Below are positions 11,473-38,989 of a stretch of DNA of 38,989 nt, piece by piece. The first letter of the stretch is position 1. The number at the start of each line of letters is the position of its first letter. Below the pieces are notes generated by a model. That model ran no database searches. It saw only the letters and a list, made by a program, of their open reading frames with translations, and was not told the origin of the DNA. The stretch is taken from positions 1-38,989 of IMG/VR virus record IMGVR_UViG_3300023179_000247. One strand, written 5' to 3'. The stretch comes from a virus. A program made the position numbers and the translations under genes.

Positions 11473-11928
11473 ATGACAGAACAAAAAACTGAACAGAATC
11501 AAGTTGTTGTCAAGAAAAAGGGCAGGCCACGAAGCGGCCCTACAAGCTATGGCTTTGAACGCGGCAATAGAATCTCGAAGGAAACGCAATATGGTGAGCC
11601 TAAAGGCAACCTGCCTAATTGGTCAATTCGCGGCGCAATGAGGCGGATAGCAGCACAGAACATTACTCTTGATGGGCCTGACAGCAAAATGTCGCTGCAT
11701 CCAATACATATTTTCGGCAAGAGGCCGATAAAAGTTGCAGAAATGATAGCGCTTAAGCAAGTGCAGAAGGCAATTCAGAATGGCGACAACACCAGCGCAC
11801 AAATGATTCTTGACCAAGTCGACGGCAAGCAACCGGATACGCTGATTCAGAATACCAACGCTTTCGCTGTGCCGATGCCTCTTGATAAAGAAAAGTGGGC
11901 CAAAAAGTATTCTCACAGCGAAGAATGA
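11473..11928 (+). CDS. Small terminase subunit-like protein (DUF5681-like)
   Basis: This is a 151-residue protein. The N-terminus has an AT-hook-like KKKGRPRSGP segment. The centre IKVAEMIALKQVQKAIQNGD plus QMILDQVDGKQPD is like DUF5681/phage small terminase subunits, in which such a helical module precedes a VEGK-type end. Its stop overlaps the large terminase start (ATGA), the usual terS-terL order. It presumably recognises phage DNA and recruits the large subunit for packaging. Sequence similarity is modest, so position carries much of the call. Confidence 0.65.
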   Translation: MTEQKTEQNQVVVKKKGRPRSGPTSYGFERGNRISKETQYGEPKGNLPNWSIRGAMRRIAAQNITLDGPDSKMSLHPIHIFGKRPIKVAEMIALKQVQKAIQNGDNTSAQMILDQVDGKQPDTLIQNTNAFAVPMPLDKEKWAKKYSHSEE

Positions 11929-14195
11929 TTATATGGCAACCGCAGCCAGGGCCACAAACGGCGCTGCTTGAGTGCACAGCCGAAGATGTTTTTTATGGCG
12001 GCGCGCGCGGCGGCGGCAAGACAGATGCAATGCTTGGCGAATGGGCGCAACACGCTAGCATATACGGCAAGGATGCAGTGGGCGTATTCTTTCGGCGTGA
12101 ATTGCCGCAGCTTGATGATGCCATTGCCCGTTCAAAGGAACTTTATTCCCAGATAGGCGCTGAATGGCAAGAGCAGAAAAAGCAATGGGTCTTCCCTAAT
12201 GGCGCATGGTTGCGTTTTCGCCCGCTTGAGCGCGACCAAGATGCCGAGAAGTATCAGGGACAACGGGCCACGCGCGTTTACGTTGAGGAGTTAACTCAAT
12301 TCCCCGACCCGCGTCCTATCGATAAGCTTTACGCTATCTTGCGAAGCGCGGCTGGCGTTCCTTGCTTTTTCAGGGCAACAGGCAACCCAGGCGGGCCTGG
12401 CACAACCTGGGTTAAGCGCCGATACATTGAGCCAGCGCCGCGAGGATGGAAGATATTCCCCGCAACCAATTCAGAAGGCAAGCCCATTCGTGGCTTTGAG
12501 CGTTTGTATATCCCCAGCAAAGTCACTGATAACAAAATATTACTTAAGAATGACCCTGATTATACCGAGAGGCTAAAGCTATCCGGCCCTCCACAATTGG
12601 TGCAAGCTTGGCTTGATGGTAACTGGGACAGCATCGAGGGCGCGGCGTTTGAGAAGCTTAGCCGTGATAAGCACATGGTTCGTGCGTTTGACATTCCTGA
12701 GCACTGGACGCGGTTTATGGGGATTGACTGGGGCAGCGCTAAACCCTTCGCGGTTCTATGGGCCACTGTTGTCGATGGTGGCGTATTGCTGGCCGCTAAG
12801 AATGGCTGGCCTGATACTTACTTGCCGAATGGCGCAATAGTCATTTATCGGGAATTTTACGGCAGTAACGGCAGGCCTAACGAGGGGTTGCGCTGGGAAT
12901 CAAGCGTTGTAGCTCAAAAGATACTTGAGATTGAGGGCGAAGAGCGCATTGATTATCGCATTGGTGATAGCGCGATGTGGGCTAGTGATGACGGCGCAAG
13001 CGTTGAAAGCAAGATGTTTCAGGCTAGTAATGGCAAGATTGCTATGAGGCAATCCCAAAAGGACAGGCGCATGAATTACCAAGCTATAAGAGAGAGGCTC
13101 TTTGGCGATGGTGACAGGCCGATGCTTTTCATTGGCGAGAATTGCGCGAATATGTGGCGCACGTTGCCTGCATTGTCGCTTGATGCGCGTGAGCCTGAAA
13201 AGGGCTGGGATTCTAACCAGGAAGACCATTGCTTTCCGCATTACACGCCGATTCTAACGAAAAATGGCATCAAGCGTATAAAAGACTGTGATGGCGTGAT
13301 GGTTATGGCTAGGGGTGGTTTTTTTAATGCTAAGTTATGGCAAGAAACGCTGAAAGAGATTTATATTATCGTTTTTGACAATGGCGAAATAATAGAAACA
13401 ACCGGCAATCATCCATTATTGACTAGTGGTGGTTTGTTTGTAAGATGTGATGAACTACATTCCGGAGATAAGCTTTCATGCGTGTTTTCGTTATCAACGA
13501 AAGGTGCCAACAGTTTGGTGGAAAGAATTATTGGCTTTGCGGCAAATACTATCAACGGCGTGGTGTTAGGTTGCATAGGGTTGTATGGCAGTTTTACAAC
13601 GGAGAAATCCCAAACGGAAAGAATAACCACGTGCATCACAGGGATGGCAATAGGGCGAATAATGATATTGAGAATCTTGAGCTTATTAGCGCCTCTAAGC
13701 ATTTATCTGAACACATGGCAGAAAGATTTGCTTGCGAGCAATATCGACAAAGAAACAAAATCAACATTGCCAAAGCGAATATTGCGGCTGCTGATTGGCA
13801 TAAGTCACAAGTTGGCAGGGCATGGCACTCACAACACGCTAAAGAGGCTTATCAAAAGCGCCAGGCGGATGATTTTACATGCATACATTGTGGCGGGATT
13901 TTTAAGTCAAGGGCAAAAAGAAAAAACATTTATTACTGCACGAACAGATGCGCCGCAGCCGACTGGAGAAAAAAGAATCCTGACTATTATAAAAACAGCG
14001 CAAAAGAAGCGCGTTATAAATCTAACCGTCAATGAGGTGGAGGAATATGTTATCGGTAATGGCTTGATAGCGCATAATTGCGCTGATGTCCTCGGATACA
14101 TGTGCCGCGAGGTTCCTTATCGTAACACTATCAACAGCCGAGCAAGTCAAGCTGAAGCTGAATATAAACGCTTGCTGAAAAAGTTTAAGTCATGA
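11925..14195 (+). CDS. terL: Large terminase subunit interrupted by an intein
   Basis: The precursor is 756 residues; removing the intein leaves 473, a normal TerL length. Walker A is YGGARGGGKT (24-33), Walker B RVYVEELTQF, and the RuvC-like nuclease starts at MGIDWGSAKPF, with GDSAMWASDDG as a second acidic site. Extein joins ...SNQEDH to CADVLGYMC, reconstituting the (T/E)DH-xAD-xx-Y motif that supplies the last nuclease Asp. ATG 11925 overlaps the upstream stop; the longer frame to 11895 is rejected. It pumps phage DNA into proheads and cuts concatemers. Activity requires intein removal, since the insertion splits the nuclease domain. Confidence 0.95.
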   Translation: MIIWQPQPGPQTALLECTAEDVFYGGARGGGKTDAMLGEWAQHASIYGKDAVGVFFRRELPQLDDAIARSKELYSQIGAEWQEQKKQWVFPNGAWLRFRPLERDQDAEKYQGQRATRVYVEELTQFPDPRPIDKLYAILRSAAGVPCFFRATGNPGGPGTTWVKRRYIEPAPRGWKIFPATNSEGKPIRGFERLYIPSKVTDNKILLKNDPDYTERLKLSGPPQLVQAWLDGNWDSIEGAAFEKLSRDKHMVRAFDIPEHWTRFMGIDWGSAKPFAVLWATVVDGGVLLAAKNGWPDTYLPNGAIVIYREFYGSNGRPNEGLRWESSVVAQKILEIEGEERIDYRIGDSAMWASDDGASVESKMFQASNGKIAMRQSQKDRRMNYQAIRERLFGDGDRPMLFIGENCANMWRTLPALSLDAREPEKGWDSNQEDHCFPHYTPILTKNGIKRIKDCDGVMVMARGGFFNAKLWQETLKEIYIIVFDNGEIIETTGNHPLLTSGGLFVRCDELHSGDKLSCVFSLSTKGANSLVERIIGFAANTINGVVLGCIGLYGSFTTEKSQTERITTCITGMAIGRIMILRILSLLAPLSIYLNTWQKDLLASNIDKETKSTLPKRILRLLIGISHKLAGHGTHNTLKRLIKSARRMILHAYIVAGFLSQGQKEKTFITARTDAPQPTGEKRILTIIKTAQKKRVINLTVNEVEEYVIGNGLIAHNCADVLGYMCREVPYRNTINSRASQAEAEYKRLLKKFKS
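13230..14078 (+). mobile_element. Intein in TerL (283 residues)
   Basis: It starts at Cys (CFPHYTPILTKNGIKRI, block A). Block B is TTGNHPLLT (T-x-x-H). Block F is RVINLTVNEVEEYVIGNGL, and it ends with His-Asn (GLIAHN, block G) followed by Cys as the +1 extein residue. All residues needed for standard class 1 splicing are present. The splicing parts are the first about 82 residues and the last about 35; the region between is read in a frame that does not encode the endonuclease and looks like a low-quality Ile/Leu/Thr/Lys-rich linker. The HNH gene at 13478-14035 lies inside in another frame. Confidence 0.92.
13478..14035 (+). CDS. HNH homing endonuclease nested out of frame in the intein
   Basis: This is a 185-residue protein. 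An N-terminal strand-rich region (YYQRRGVRLHRVVWQFYNGE) leads to HVHHRDGNRANNDIENLELI, the HNH core with paired His and Asn residues, as in HNH_3-type endonucleases of introns and free-standing genes. A C-terminal Cys4 element (CIHCGG ... YYCTNRC) could bind zinc. GGAG lies 10 nt before ATG 13478. It is shifted by 2 nt relative to the intein frame (13230), ends 43 nt before the intein end, and its 3' part overlaps intein block F. It probably cuts intein-free terL alleles and so spreads the element. Confidence 0.92.
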   Translation: MRVFVINERCQQFGGKNYWLCGKYYQRRGVRLHRVVWQFYNGEIPNGKNNHVHHRDGNRANNDIENLELISASKHLSEHMAERFACEQYRQRNKINIAKANIAAADWHKSQVGRAWHSQHAKEAYQKRQADDFTCIHCGGIFKSRAKRKNIYYCTNRCAAADWRKKNPDYYKNSAKEARYKSNRQ

Positions 14196-14251: not shown

Positions 14252-15028
14252 ATGAGTGAATGCGGGCCGATAGTTTACATAGGCTATGACAACCGAGAGC
14301 CTATTGCGTTTGATGTTTTGGCCTCCTCGATAAAGCTACGAACAGAGCAAGATGTTAAGATATTCAAGCTTGACCACAGGGTGTTAAGAAAGCAAAGGCG
14401 GTTTACGCGACCTTGGTTGATTGATGCTGATACGGGCAATTTTAGGGATTTGATTGATGGCAAGCCGTTTAGCACTGAATTTAGCCATACGAGATTTCTT
14501 GTGCCGGATTTGCAGGATTATCAGGGGTGGGCGTTGTTTATGGATTGTGACATGATATTTCAGAGCGATATTAAAAAGCTTTGGGAGTTGAGGGACAATA
14601 GATTTGCCGTGATGGTTGTGAAGCATAACCACAAGGGGCAGGAATCTAAGTTAAAAATGGATGACAGGGTGCAACTTAACTATCACAGAAAGAATTGGTC
14701 TAGTTTTGTGATGTGGAATTGTGCGCATCCTAGCAACAGGCGGATGAATTGTGCGCGGGTTAATATGTGGAGCGGGACACAATTGCATTGTTTCAGTTGG
14801 TTATCTGATAACGAGATTGGCGAATTGCCAAAGTCTTACAACTGGATGGCTGGTGTGAGTCCTGTTGATGTTGCGCCTGATGTTATTCACTACACCGAGG
14901 GTGGCCCGTGGTTCGAGAATTGCTTAGATGTTCCTTTGGCTGATTTATGGGTCAAGGAGTATAAGTTAATGAAGCGACATAGGCATGAATTGATATATGA
15001 AAACTTGCCTTGTGATGACGCGCCATGA
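14252..15028 (+). CDS. Glycosyltransferase, GT-A fold, GT8-like
   Basis: This is a 258-residue protein. It starts with VYIGYDNREPIAFDVLASSI, typical of phage/bacterial GT8-like transferases, and has the metal-binding DxD as MDCDMIF (residues 98-100), then a late PDVIHYTEGGPW. No membrane segment, so probably cytoplasmic. GAGAGG lies before ATG 14252. It opens a five-gene sugar-related module between terL and the portal gene; the next gene overlaps by 4 nt. The acceptor is unknown: phage proteins, DNA or host surface glycan are all possible. Confidence 0.85.
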   Translation: MSECGPIVYIGYDNREPIAFDVLASSIKLRTEQDVKIFKLDHRVLRKQRRFTRPWLIDADTGNFRDLIDGKPFSTEFSHTRFLVPDLQDYQGWALFMDCDMIFQSDIKKLWELRDNRFAVMVVKHNHKGQESKLKMDDRVQLNYHRKNWSSFVMWNCAHPSNRRMNCARVNMWSGTQLHCFSWLSDNEIGELPKSYNWMAGVSPVDVAPDVIHYTEGGPWFENCLDVPLADLWVKEYKLMKRHRHELIYENLPCDDAP

Positions 15029-15675
15029 GTGTTTTTTATAACCAAAGCGCAAGATTATGTGTGTGCGTGCCGACGATGGGCAGGCCTAAGGGCTTTAACA
15101 GGCTTTTGCAGAGCATTCAGGATACGGCGACAACGGGGCGCGTGAGCGTGTTGGTTGATATTCAGGGCAAGCCAGATGGCTATGACCTGAACAACAAACT
15201 TGTGGCGAAGGTGTTTGAATCACCTGTTGGCCAGCCAACTGTATATCGCTGGAATCGCATGTTTTATTATGGCGAAAAGCAGTCTTTGGGCGATTTCTAC
15301 ATGCTTGGCGCTGATGACATGGTTTTTCTGGATAAGGGCTGGGATGAGTTTTTTAGCACGCCTGATAGTGCGGGGTATTTTGTTTTTCACTTGCAAGACA
15401 CGAGGGATGTTGACGGAACGCCTCATCCTATTGTGAAGCATACCGAGCCTTATTTGGTTCACCCAGGCTTTTTGCATTGGTATGGCGACACACACCTTGT
15501 GGAGAATGCGCGGAATAGCAATGAGTTCAAGCATATTCGCACGCATCGATTAGCGCATATTAAGCCGAGTGATGTTGGCGTTTGTGATGAAACTCATTTG
15601 ATGATACGCAAAATGGGATGGCGTGAGCGCGATAAGGAATTTTATAATTATCTCAAATTGGATGATGGCGGTTAA
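15025..15675 (+). CDS. Family 2-like glycosyltransferase
   Basis: This is a 216-residue protein. CVCVPTMGRPKGFNRLLQSI is a GT2-style start (P-T-x-x-R-P), and GDFYMLGADDMVFLDKGWDE carries a D-D metal/nucleotide site where GT2 enzymes have DxD. The C-terminal half has YLVHPGFLHWYGDTHL, usual for short phage GT2-like proteins. Overlaps its neighbours on both sides by 4 or 0 nt, so it is in one operon with them. Substrate unknown. Confidence 0.8.
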   Translation: MSVFYNQSARLCVCVPTMGRPKGFNRLLQSIQDTATTGRVSVLVDIQGKPDGYDLNNKLVAKVFESPVGQPTVYRWNRMFYYGEKQSLGDFYMLGADDMVFLDKGWDEFFSTPDSAGYFVFHLQDTRDVDGTPHPIVKHTEPYLVHPGFLHWYGDTHLVENARNSNEFKHIRTHRLAHIKPSDVGVCDETHLMIRKMGWRERDKEFYNYLKLDDGG

Positions 15676-16671
15676 ATGAAAGTCTGGATAACGGGAATTG
15701 CTGGCTTTTTGGGCAGTCACTTGGCTGATACGCTTGTCCGTGGCGGTTATGAGGTATTTGGGAATGACAGCCTGATTTGCGGCGATGTATCGAATTATGA
15801 CAAGTTTGCGATGCTGGATTGTTGTCACCAAATTTCTATGGTGACGCAATTAAGGCAATTTGCGCCAGATGTTCTTGTGCATTGCGCGGCCACGGCTCAT
15901 GAGGGGTTTAGCAGCTTTAGCCCGTCTTTTATCACGCGAAACATTTATGAAGCGAGTGTGGCAACGTTTAGCGCGGCGATAGCGGCGGGCGTGAAGCGCA
16001 TTGTGTTTATGTCGAGCATGTCGCGTTATGGCGATAACGTTCCGCCTTTTACTGAAGACATGAGGCCAAGGCCTGTTGACCCATATGCGGTGGCGAAGGT
16101 TGCGGCTGAGGATACGTTACGAATCCTTTGCGAAACACATGGCGTGGCTTGGTCTGTCTTGGTGCCGCATAACATTATCGGCCCGCGGCAAAGGTATACT
16201 GACCCTTATCGGAATGTCGCCAGCATTATGATTAACCGATGTTTGCAGGGCAAGGGGCCTGTTATTTACGGCGATGGCATGCAGACAAGGTGTTTCAGCC
16301 CTATCGAGGATTGCTTGCCGTCGATTGTTCGGGCTGTTAATGGCGAAGCTGATGGTGAGGTGGTTAACATTGGGCCGGATGATTATGAGATAACGATTTT
16401 GGATTTGGCTGGCAGGGTGAGCGCTTTAACTGGTTATGATGGGCCGTATGAGTTTTTTCCTGACAGGCCGAATGAAGTGAAACATGCTTATTGCAGCAGC
16501 ATGAAAGCGCGAAAGCTTTTGAAGTATCAGCAGCAGAATCATTTGGATAACTGTTTACGCGACATGGTTCGTCATATTCAGCAGCATGGCATTAAGCCGT
16601 TTGATTATCGCTTTCCGCTTGAGATTATCAACGACCGCACGCCCAAAACATGGCTGGAGAGGAAAATATGA
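15676..16671 (+). CDS. NAD-dependent sugar epimerase/dehydratase
   Basis: This is a 331-residue extended SDR protein. The dinucleotide motif is TGIAGFLGSH (G7, G10, G13), the catalytic Tyr and Lys are Y137 and K141 in DPYAVAKVAAE, and a Ser near 113-114 (FMSSMSRYG) completes the triad. C-terminal PNEVKHAYCSS is typical of nucleotide-sugar 4-epimerases. It probably converts a host nucleotide sugar into the donor used by the glycosyltransferases around it. ATG 15676 directly follows the previous stop. Confidence 0.9.
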   Translation: MKVWITGIAGFLGSHLADTLVRGGYEVFGNDSLICGDVSNYDKFAMLDCCHQISMVTQLRQFAPDVLVHCAATAHEGFSSFSPSFITRNIYEASVATFSAAIAAGVKRIVFMSSMSRYGDNVPPFTEDMRPRPVDPYAVAKVAAEDTLRILCETHGVAWSVLVPHNIIGPRQRYTDPYRNVASIMINRCLQGKGPVIYGDGMQTRCFSPIEDCLPSIVRAVNGEADGEVVNIGPDDYEITILDLAGRVSALTGYDGPYEFFPDRPNEVKHAYCSSMKARKLLKYQQQNHLDNCLRDMVRHIQQHGIKPFDYRFPLEIINDRTPKTWLERKI

Positions 16672-17258
16672 CAAGCTTCAACGAGCGTTGGGACTTTGCG
16701 CTGAAAGCCTCAAAGCGTCCTGTTGTGCAAAACAGGAACGAGTTAGAGCATATTTTTAACATGATAAAGTTGCGCGGTGCCAAGTCTTATTTGGAGATAG
16801 GCACGGCTGAGGGATTAACGGCCTATGTTTTGGCGGGCGCGTTGGATGCGTGCAGCAGGATTGTTTGCGTTGATTTTTGCGAGCCGCATTGTGAGGCAAC
16901 GCGAACATTGTTGCTTAATAAGCTGGAGATGGAAGGGCATAGCGTTATGATGTATAAGGGCAACTCAAGGAATCCTGAGGTTGTTTCCGAAGTTAGCCGC
17001 AGCGTTTATGATGTTGTATTGATTGATGGCGACCATACATTTGAGGGCGTTAAGGCCGATACAATCAATTACGCGCATTTAGCGAATAAATATGTTTTTT
17101 GGCATGATGTGATTGCGTGTACTAGTGTGGCGAATTACATAAGTTTGATGAACGACACGTTTAACAGCACGGTTTATTTTGACCCTGATGGCAACCATTT
17201 GGCTGTGATGGGGCCCGAAAGGGTTTATGGCTATGCAATCAAGGAGATTCGCATATGA
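16668..17258 (+). CDS. Class I SAM-dependent methyltransferase
   Basis: This is a 196-residue protein. The SAM motif YLEIGTAEGLTAYVLAGAL (motif I) and VYDVVLIDGDHTFEGVKAD (post-II/acid loop with metal-like D-x-D-H) match the methyltransferase_24/CmcI-like group of O-methyltransferases. ATG 16668 has GGAGAGG 5 nt upstream and overlaps the epimerase stop; the frame open to 16650 is not used. In this context it may methylate a sugar made or transferred by its neighbours. Confidence 0.85.
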   Translation: MTSFNERWDFALKASKRPVVQNRNELEHIFNMIKLRGAKSYLEIGTAEGLTAYVLAGALDACSRIVCVDFCEPHCEATRTLLLNKLEMEGHSVMMYKGNSRNPEVVSEVSRSVYDVVLIDGDHTFEGVKADTINYAHLANKYVFWHDVIACTSVANYISLMNDTFNSTVYFDPDGNHLAVMGPERVYGYAIKEIRI

Positions 17259-18856
17259 AGACTTTTGTTGTCACAACATTTTCGGCGCAGGGTTTTGATT
17301 TATATGGCCGTGATTTTTTGCTTGGTTTTTGCAAGCATTGGCCTAAGGATGTTGGGCTTTTTCTTAAGGTTGATAACGAGGAGGAGGCCAAGCGCGTCGC
17401 TGAATTTATCAATGAGAGCGTTGATAAAAACAGGTTAATTGTTGGTTATTATGGGAAATCTGACGAACATGAGAATTTTCTGAAGATAGCGCATGATGAT
17501 AAGACGAATTACCGCATGCAGCCTGTCAGGTTTAGCCATAAGCCAGCGGCATTGGTTGATGCGCTTATTGAATTGGAGCAATACAAGCCTGATTATATTA
17601 TTTGGCTTGATGCTGACGTTATCACAAGCGATACTGTGACGGCTGAAGATTTGGCGGCGTGTTTGCCTGTGGGCGATGCGTGCGTTGCTTATTTGGGTCG
17701 CAAGGATTATGACCATCTTGAGGCTGGTTTTGTGGCGTATAAGTTGCCTGAAGGGGCTGAGATTATTCAAAAGCTTTGGGCTTTTTGGAAAAGCGGGTCA
17801 ATTTTTGAGCAAAAAGAGCAACACGACAGCTATTTGCTGCAAACGCTGTTAACGCCTGAAAACAGCACGAATCTGACAGAAGGTAAACCTGGCGTTGAGA
17901 TATGGCCGCATTTTCCGATTGGCTTGAAAAGTCATCATTACAAGGGCAATCAGAAGTTAGAGAGAGTTGCGCCGCAGAACGGCAACATTAAGTTTGTGAC
18001 GAAAAATTGTTTACCTGATAACCAGATTATAGAAAACATTCGAATGAACAACCGCATTCTGAAGCATTGGTTATCGCCTTGCCAGCCTCATGATTTAACA
18101 GCGGTTATGGTGGCGGCCGGGCCTAGTTTTTACGGGCATGAGCTTGCGCGGCATTTAACGCCAGAAAAAAGGATAATTTGCGTTAAGAACGCGCTGACGA
18201 GAACGGCGGAGGCTGGATATAGTCCTTGGGGATGTGTCTTGCTTGACCCAAGACAGCATGTTGAGGAGTTTGTGCAAAAACCCGACACAAATACAATTTA
18301 CTTTGCGGCGAGCATGGTTAACCCCAGCGTGACAAGCTGGTTAATGAAGTGTGGCGCAACTGTTGTTGGTTATCATGCGCCGACAGGCGCTAATGAAGCG
18401 CATCTTTATGAGGGCATGCTTGGTTCTATTGTGCATTTTGGCAGCGCTAGCGCCACGAGGGGCATAAGCCTTGCGCGGATGTTGGGGTTCAGCAGGTTCC
18501 ATTTGATAGGCTATGACTTGTCTTATGATGATGGCATGGACAAGTCTGAAAAAGAGATTGACGGCAATTTGAAAAACGAGGTGATGACGATAACCTTGAA
18601 TGGTTTGAAGGGCATGGAGAGAAGCCGCAATTTTGAGGGGCAGAAGCAATGGTTTGCGCAAGGGCAGGAATTAGAGGAGTTGTTTAAGATTCCTGAGCTG
18701 ACGTTTACGGCTGAGGGGCATGGGCTTGCACCGTGGATTTTGCACTATATTAAGGCTATGGAATTAGCAAAAATAAAACAATGCGGATATACTGAAAAGC
18801 CAGAGTTTAACCTTTGGCTAAAGGATATAGGCCGTGGCGATAAGCGAACAACTTGA
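17255..18856 (+). CDS. Two-domain protein: glycosyltransferase plus DUF115
   Basis: This is a 533-residue protein. Residues about 1-250 form a GT-A glycosyltransferase-like domain with YIIWLDADVI (D119, D121). Residues about 280-505 match DUF115 (MptE/Maf-related): DLTAVMVAAGPSFYGHELAR, then HFGSASATRGISLARMLG and FHLIGYDLSYDDG. DUF115/Maf proteins transfer nonulosonic-type sugars to flagellins or handle nucleotide substrates. The fusion suggests one protein makes and extends a glycan. It overlaps the portal gene by 23 nt, so the module is embedded in the virion operon. Confidence 0.85.
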   Translation: MKTFVVTTFSAQGFDLYGRDFLLGFCKHWPKDVGLFLKVDNEEEAKRVAEFINESVDKNRLIVGYYGKSDEHENFLKIAHDDKTNYRMQPVRFSHKPAALVDALIELEQYKPDYIIWLDADVITSDTVTAEDLAACLPVGDACVAYLGRKDYDHLEAGFVAYKLPEGAEIIQKLWAFWKSGSIFEQKEQHDSYLLQTLLTPENSTNLTEGKPGVEIWPHFPIGLKSHHYKGNQKLERVAPQNGNIKFVTKNCLPDNQIIENIRMNNRILKHWLSPCQPHDLTAVMVAAGPSFYGHELARHLTPEKRIICVKNALTRTAEAGYSPWGCVLLDPRQHVEEFVQKPDTNTIYFAASMVNPSVTSWLMKCGATVVGYHAPTGANEAHLYEGMLGSIVHFGSASATRGISLARMLGFSRFHLIGYDLSYDDGMDKSEKEIDGNLKNEVMTITLNGLKGMERSRNFEGQKQWFAQGQELEELFKIPELTFTAEGHGLAPWILHYIKAMELAKIKQCGYTEKPEFNLWLKDIGRGDKRTT

Positions 18857-38518: not shown

Positions 38519-38686
38519 CTAAAGTGTTTCATCTTGCCCTCTGCATTTTGTTCTTTGTTCAGCCAATTCATGCAGGCCAAGTTTTTGCATCAATCTCACG
38601 CAACATTCTTGGTAGTCGTCATATTGTTCTTTGCTTTCACGCGCAGAGCAATCTCCGATGCAGTGGTGTGTGTCTGTGTTATTCAT
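38519..38686 (-). CDS. Small cysteine-rich early protein
   Basis: This is a 55-residue protein, starting MNNTDTHHCIGDCSARESKE with four Cys and several His in the first 35 residues (HHCIGDC, ECCVR), possibly a small zinc-binding fold. ATG 38686 has AGGAA and GGAGG upstream and overlaps the end of the glycine-rich gene by 8 nt. The longer Ala/Thr frame upstream is a shadow of that gene. Confidence 0.65.
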   Translation of the reverse strand: MNNTDTHHCIGDCSARESKEQYDDYQECCVRLMQKLGLHELAEQRTKCRGQDETL

Positions 38687-38963
38687 TTCCTGCAACCTCC
38701 GGAATCGGCGTGTCCGTCCCGTAATTCTTTCCTTTGCTGTTGCCACCTTCGCCAATTCCGTGGCCATATCCGCTGCCGTCGCCAACGCCCCAACCTTCGC
38801 CGCTTCCGCTGCCGCCACCGCTACCGTATCCACTGCCGTAGCCTCTGCCGTAGCCTCTGCCTCTGTCGTCCCCGCCGCCCGCGCCGCTGCCTCTGCCGCT
38901 GCCGCTGCCGTCGCCCTGGCTGGGGCCGTCACCATTATGCCTAATCTTCAATAAATCTAACAT
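38679..38963 (-). CDS. Glycine-rich repeat protein, complete copy
   Basis: This is a 94-residue protein. ATG 38963 has GGAGGAA 6 nt before it. It opens MLDLLKIRHNGDGPSQGDGS, then a Gly/Ser/Tyr/Arg repeat region (about 20-75) and a conserved tail GGNSKGKNYG then TDTPIPEVAGNE. It differs from the left-end copy by repeat number (one clear unit against three) and by an arginine/aspartate segment GAGGGDDRGRGYGRG found only here. Function unknown; may be an RNA- or surface-binding disordered protein. Confidence 0.85.
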   Translation of the reverse strand: MLDLLKIRHNGDGPSQGDGSGSGRGSGAGGGDDRGRGYGRGYGSGYGSGGGSGSGEGWGVGDGSGYGHGIGEGGNSKGKNYGTDTPIPEVAGNE

Positions 38964-38989
38964 AGGATTCCTCCGCAATTTTAGTCGTG
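38717..38989. repeat. Right copy of the terminal direct repeat
   Basis: Matches 1-303 with identical flanks of 94 and 91 bp and a divergent 88-bp centre (38811-38898). Read as one circular locus, it joins the leftward gene 255-623 to the glycine-rich gene and on to 38686-37813, giving one continuous early operon. Confidence 0.9.

Follow-up and report, generated by a model that had tools for sequence, protein, structure and literature searches.

A mini-intein in a viral terL gene with an HNH endonuclease gene overprinted in a second frame: a probable composite homing element

The virus record IMGVR_UViG_3300023179_000247 of IMG/VR, analysed here over a stretch of 38,989 nucleotides (the window), carries a terL gene, encoding the large subunit of the terminase, that is interrupted by an intein, and within this intein lies a complete gene for an HNH endonuclease in another reading frame. 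The terL open reading frame (ORF) is open from end to end, with the intein occupying TerL residues 446–728, and the HNH frame is displaced from the intein frame by +2 nt, or equivalently −1. The parts of the locus are as follows.

11895–14195, + strand: terL, terminase large subunit precursor of 766 residues including the intein (PHROG 979, E = 1.7e-37; Pfam Terminase_6N, E = 8.8e-10)
13230–14078, + strand: intein of 283 residues, between TerL ...EDH and CADVLGY in a DH^xxDxxRY motif (Pfam Intein_splicing; alignment of the spliced TerL)
13230–13490, + strand: N-terminal splicing domain, with Cys1 at 13230–13232 and the TGNH block at 13401–13412 (C1/H61 invariance; AlphaFold2)
13464–13467, + strand: GGAG, a Shine-Dalgarno-like (SD) sequence of the HNH gene (from the sequence)
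13478–14035, + strand: HNH_3 endonuclease gene of 185 residues, +2 nt out of the intein frame (Pfam HNH_3, E = 6e-15; PHROG 15471, E = 1e-25)
13491–13961, + strand: stop-free intein-frame linker that shadows the HNH gene (structure predicted at low confidence; no stops, with 4.7 expected)
13962–14078, + strand: C-terminal splicing domain, VINLTVNEVEEYVIGNGLIAHN (invariance of the terminal Asn; structure-prediction confidence of 96–98)
14079–14195, + strand: TerL C-extein, CADVLGYMCREVPYR..., with the nucleophile Cys+1 (sequence; junction alignment)

The intein and the gene inside it

The intein begins with Cys1, carries TGNH as its block B (TxxH) and ends in VINLTV...GNGLIAHN, a His-Asn terminus followed by Cys+1, the sequence features of a class 1 intein. 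Its two splicing parts are modelled confidently in a HINT fold, for which the closest solved structure is the gp41-1 intein (Foldseek, E = 7e-6). A classical homing intein has its endonuclease fused in the intein frame, whereas here the HNH gene occupies the +2 frame; a split intein has its N- and C-terminal halves on separate ORFs, whereas here both lie on the single ORF 11895–14195. An earlier note, made from the letters alone, had given the coordinates, frames, lengths and motifs of the intein and the nested gene, and had assigned the latter an SD and an ATG (at 13478) of its own, all of which agreed with a re-reading of the sequence. Searched separately, the 283-residue frame matches Intein_splicing (E = 1.5e-10) and the 185-residue product scores 55 bits against a cut-off of 24.8 for HNH_3. 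This product shares the common HNH core with I-HmuI (PDB 1u3e), an enzyme belonging to a group I intron, with a sequence-profile match at E = 7e-5 and a weak fold match (Foldseek, E = 0.16). Going upstream from the ATG, the first stop met in the HNH frame is a TAA at 13469–13471, two codons away, and the 3' end of the gene falls within the beginning of the C-terminal splicing block.

When spliced in silico, TerL aligns unbroken to the intein-free TerL of MW202489 (residues 1–472, 44.9%), and six viral contigs (L126–L131) read EDH|xxD at the intein-free junction; intein-free alleles, which the earlier note had proposed looking for, are thus available, and together they place the intein inside the DHxxDxxRY motif. 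From general knowledge of TerL and the position near the C-terminus, we take this motif to belong to the nuclease domain. Highwayman and BP10 were rejected as an empty-site pair at the DNA level, their terminases being too divergent and the junction not clean, and a scan of genome contigs for prophage or genome copies gave two weak partial matches only.

Recurrence and stop avoidance among relatives

Relatives of the HNH protein were taken from IMG/VR and a collection of phage records, giving 111 catalogued loci. In 82 of these the HNH gene lies out of frame within a continuous intein ORF, 75 in the phase of the window (phase 2) and seven in phase 1; four come from the phage-record collection and the rest from many samples, and a few are near-copies (among them L008/L012 and L087/L091). 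Hidden Markov models detected the intein N and C domains at all 82, and the host proteins tested were terminases by Pfam in most cases. Under a definition independent of frame, an HNH gene with an intein N domain on one side and a C domain on the other, there are 82 continuous and nine broken loci. A search with the intein C-terminus, in which the HNH was not used, returned 454 relatives; of the 77 complete loci sampled from these, all were continuous with the HNH in phase 2 and none had it in frame, although the sample favours close relatives of the nested queries and shares some contigs with the first set. The number of other virus contigs showing the layout is well above a hundred, and in annotated records of named phages only TerL is annotated at the locus. 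Judged from these sequences, the arrangement in the window belongs to a large family that comes in both phases and includes split relatives, and is not a lone oddity. In-frame relatives were considered as a parent state and rejected: no TerL intein with an HNH of this family in frame was found among the 82 catalogued and 77 intein-picked loci, so that this possible refutation named in the earlier note fails as well.

Whether the open intein frame could be due to chance was addressed with a null model in which the HNH protein is fixed, synonymous codons are free at the GC content of the contig, and stops in the host frame are counted. For the window gene alone, 4.7 stops were expected and none observed (P = 2.3e-3), which is modestly unlikely and suggestive only; the 1 in 10,000 of the earlier note rested on the wrong null and was about 20-fold too extreme. 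Among relatives, host-frame stops number 0 against 331 expected in the 75 phase 2 genes, and 0 against 93 in the seven phase 1 genes. The unused frame of the nested genes holds 1252 stops against 1255 expected and 90 against 63, and free-standing or split HNH relatives hold 207 against 198 and 542 against 517. The pooled counts form a double dissociation, with stops missing from the intein-used frame alone and the other frame at expectation or above, and they rule out chance as a full account. The same avoidance is visible in the protein: a Met with Ile, Lys, Met, Asn or Thr as the next residue forces a TGA in the phase 2 host frame, and such pairs involve none of the 93 Met in phase 2 genes but 26 of the 78 Met in free-standing or split relatives. 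Stop avoidance as read from these genes is therefore decisive only once relatives are added, and it supports the supposition of the earlier note that selection holds the intein frame stop-free.

The two overlapping products differ in how they appear to be constrained. In close pairs, substitutions fall mostly at HNH codon position 3, and in the listed pairs HNH identity exceeds linker identity. AlphaFold2 assigns a predicted local distance difference test (pLDDT) score of 96–98 to the N- and C-terminal splicing domains and a mean of 93.5 to the HNH protein, against about 50 over most of linker residues 90–240. These three observations argue that the HNH is a constrained protein, and for the intein frame across it the main requirement appears to be that it stay open. 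This comparative picture accords with the earlier suggestion of a mini-intein splicing domain joined by a non-endonuclease linker. Throughout the family the HNH and zinc-ligand residues vary little or not at all, with H53, H54, N61 and N62 invariant, as are C1, H61 and the terminal Asn in 63 nested inteins, and a complete HNH ORF with a start is present at 82 of 82 nested loci. The surrounding exteins are often less similar to each other than are the HNH and intein sequences, as would be predicted for mobile units; in L067 and L068, for example, the HNH proteins are 63% and the exteins 25% identical.

Proposed mechanism and competing readings

The locus is very probably a composite homing element in terL, consisting of a mini-intein and an HNH homing endonuclease that is overprinted as a separate gene and translated from its own start, with selection keeping the intein frame free of stops. 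Ribosomes translating terL would read the whole region in the intein frame, and the precursor would splice to restore TerL, while other ribosomes would initiate at the internal SD and ATG to produce free HNH. Cleavage of intein-free terL by the endonuclease, at the DH^xxD motif or close to it, would then allow the intein and the HNH gene to be copied into the site as one unit. TerL being essential, selection would purge any intein-frame stop, even one that is silent in the HNH.

Several points weigh against this reading. The window intein has no close relative, so that selection on two frames is not measurable on the window copy. The proposed cleavage site is putative, and two insertion sites one codon apart are in use. 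Nested loci were initially defined via the open frame itself, ahead of the frame-independent definition, and the intein-picked sample has the bias given above. An SD match of at least 4 nt is found at only 52 of the 82 nested genes, and with about a third lacking a good SD, internal initiation is a probable mechanism and no more.

The HNH protein could instead be a packaging partner of the terminase, with its place in the intein being incidental. Free-standing relatives do lie next to or near terL, and HNH proteins beside terL that help TerL to cut DNA are known (cited in PMC11855218). However, the best matches of the window protein are homing-type HNH_3 and I-HmuI, HNH inteins occur in highly divergent TerLs, and many TerLs have no intein at the site, making this alternative improbable. 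It is similarly doubtful, and marginally more so, that the intein-frame linker is a functional segment selected as protein. Compared with synonymous recodings, the linkers of 75 genes show small shifts, with less Pro and Lys/Arg and more Asp/Glu, which codon bias alone might explain, yet the linker evolves faster than the HNH and is predicted without confident structure.

Two further readings are very unlikely. The first, raised in the earlier note, is that programmed frameshifting joins the HNH to the N-terminal part of the intein, since the HNH frame is −1 relative to that of the intein. The stop two codons 5' of the ATG stands in the way, and no slippery heptamer was found in 13440–13520, as the earlier note had also observed; moreover, the distance from the upstream stop to the chosen start has a median of 4 codons over the 82 loci, and both phases occur. 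An SD match of at least 5 nt lies ahead of the first ATG in 26 of 76 cases, compared with 5% among 334 out-of-frame ATGs used as controls; this enrichment, with the short stop-to-start distance, favours internal initiation over frameshifting. The second is that the HNH frame is a dead remnant and the intein frame alone matters. Homing endonucleases commonly decay, but the near-invariant HNH and zinc-ligand residues, the position 3 changes and the complete ORFs with starts throughout the nested loci are at odds with this. Finally, an assembly error or indel concealing an in-frame HNH, which the earlier note had named as a possible refutation, has a negligible probability, being refuted by recurrence of the layout in 82 catalogued loci and in all 77 of the HNH-independent search.

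Family states, known systems and neighbouring observations

The composite element interpretation can be set beside other states of the family. Free HNH genes adjoin terL in PAE1, SN1, FBPa53, Poludnitsa and EauM-23, and lie near it in BP10 and Shemara; in PAE1, SN1, Poludnitsa and EauM-23, for example, the terL is intein-less. In L004 and L006 (2060–4537) a free-standing HNH gene from this family comes directly after a TerL mini-intein. Split TerL inteins with the HNH between the halves, each with its own stops and starts, occur in L042 (Lactobacillus phage CL2), L046, L051, L052, L059, L100, L110, L113 and L011; at the CL2 locus (455–2774), the C-terminal TerL piece, ORF 2487–2774, is unannotated. 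An HNH tree, from a quick search and with modest support, mixes nested with free genes, and its well-supported branches require a minimum of five changes between these states. A switch of phase would hit many stops at once, so each phase probably stems from a capture of its own. More tentatively, and with somewhat less than even confidence, overprinted inteins may form a distinct and widespread class, in which free HNH genes adjacent to terL have repeatedly been captured out of frame by mini-inteins and interconversion with split inteins has occurred, so that the family would show how homing endonucleases come to be joined to inteins and how natural split inteins form. The coexistence of free HNH with empty terL, mini-intein with HNH, overprinted and split states makes both the joining and the origin of split inteins directly testable.

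The nearest known parallel is the ShiLan domain, or Pacc40 insertion, a hidden out-of-frame HNH in a phage DNA methylase (PMC11855218, 2025). As in ShiLan, the HNH gene lies in another frame, the host frame is stop-free and the distribution is patchy, suggesting homing. In contrast, ShiLan has no splicing domain, its insert stays in a dispensable methylase, and it uses a GTG start without an SD (PMC11855218), whereas the TerL element has intact splicing blocks on either side, in an essential gene, and its HNH mostly starts with ATG and often has an SD. Fractured genes, with an endonuclease gene between split-intein halves, are attributed to Dassa et al. 2009 in passages of PMC6892783 and PMC8228797, and MIJ3 PolB has a split intein with an HNH between the halves (PMC6892783). 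The TerL element likewise has its endonuclease gene between N- and C-intein parts, with split versions in the same family, but fractured inteins are broken into two proteins and the TerL intein keeps one continuous frame. Mycobacteriophage TerL inteins, shown to splice, lie in the ATPase domain (PMC5050341), while the window family is in the nuclease domain with its HNH out of frame. No description of an out-of-frame endonuclease inside a continuous intein was found in a search of open-licence papers, and this feature is provisionally considered novel.

Inteins are usually described as one polypeptide with splicing and endonuclease activities; here, one DNA stretch encodes two separate proteins, in an essential phage gene and across very divergent TerLs. 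With stop avoidance in two phases, nature has supplied a test of selection on overlapping genes that is unusually clean, and the family adds to the gp41-1-like inteins used for protein engineering.

Several other loci were observed in passing. L019 (1397–4096) has the sole in-frame HNH of the search, in an intein whose host looks by eye like ribonucleotide reductase, and the host ORF of L066 (616–4326) has an in-frame LAGLIDADG homing domain upstream in addition to an out-of-frame HNH intein. In L030 (Pectobacterium phage Abuela, 2075–5185), intein N and C parts flank a LAGLIDADG gene, with ORFs that overlap; the arrangement begins ahead of a helicase gene and extends into it, and the intein looks split. 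A 62-residue piece at the terL end of L138 (Brochothrix phage BL3, 2232–2417), with 56% identity to the HNH C-terminus, is possibly a remnant of the element. In the window itself, 14252–18856, between terL and the next long ORF (probably portal), holds glycosyltransferase family 8, epimerase, methyltransferase and MptE-like genes, an odd location for a sugar-modification cassette, and 38519–38978, near the right end, is low-complexity and coding-like, being Ala/Glu- or Gly/Ser-rich depending on the frame.
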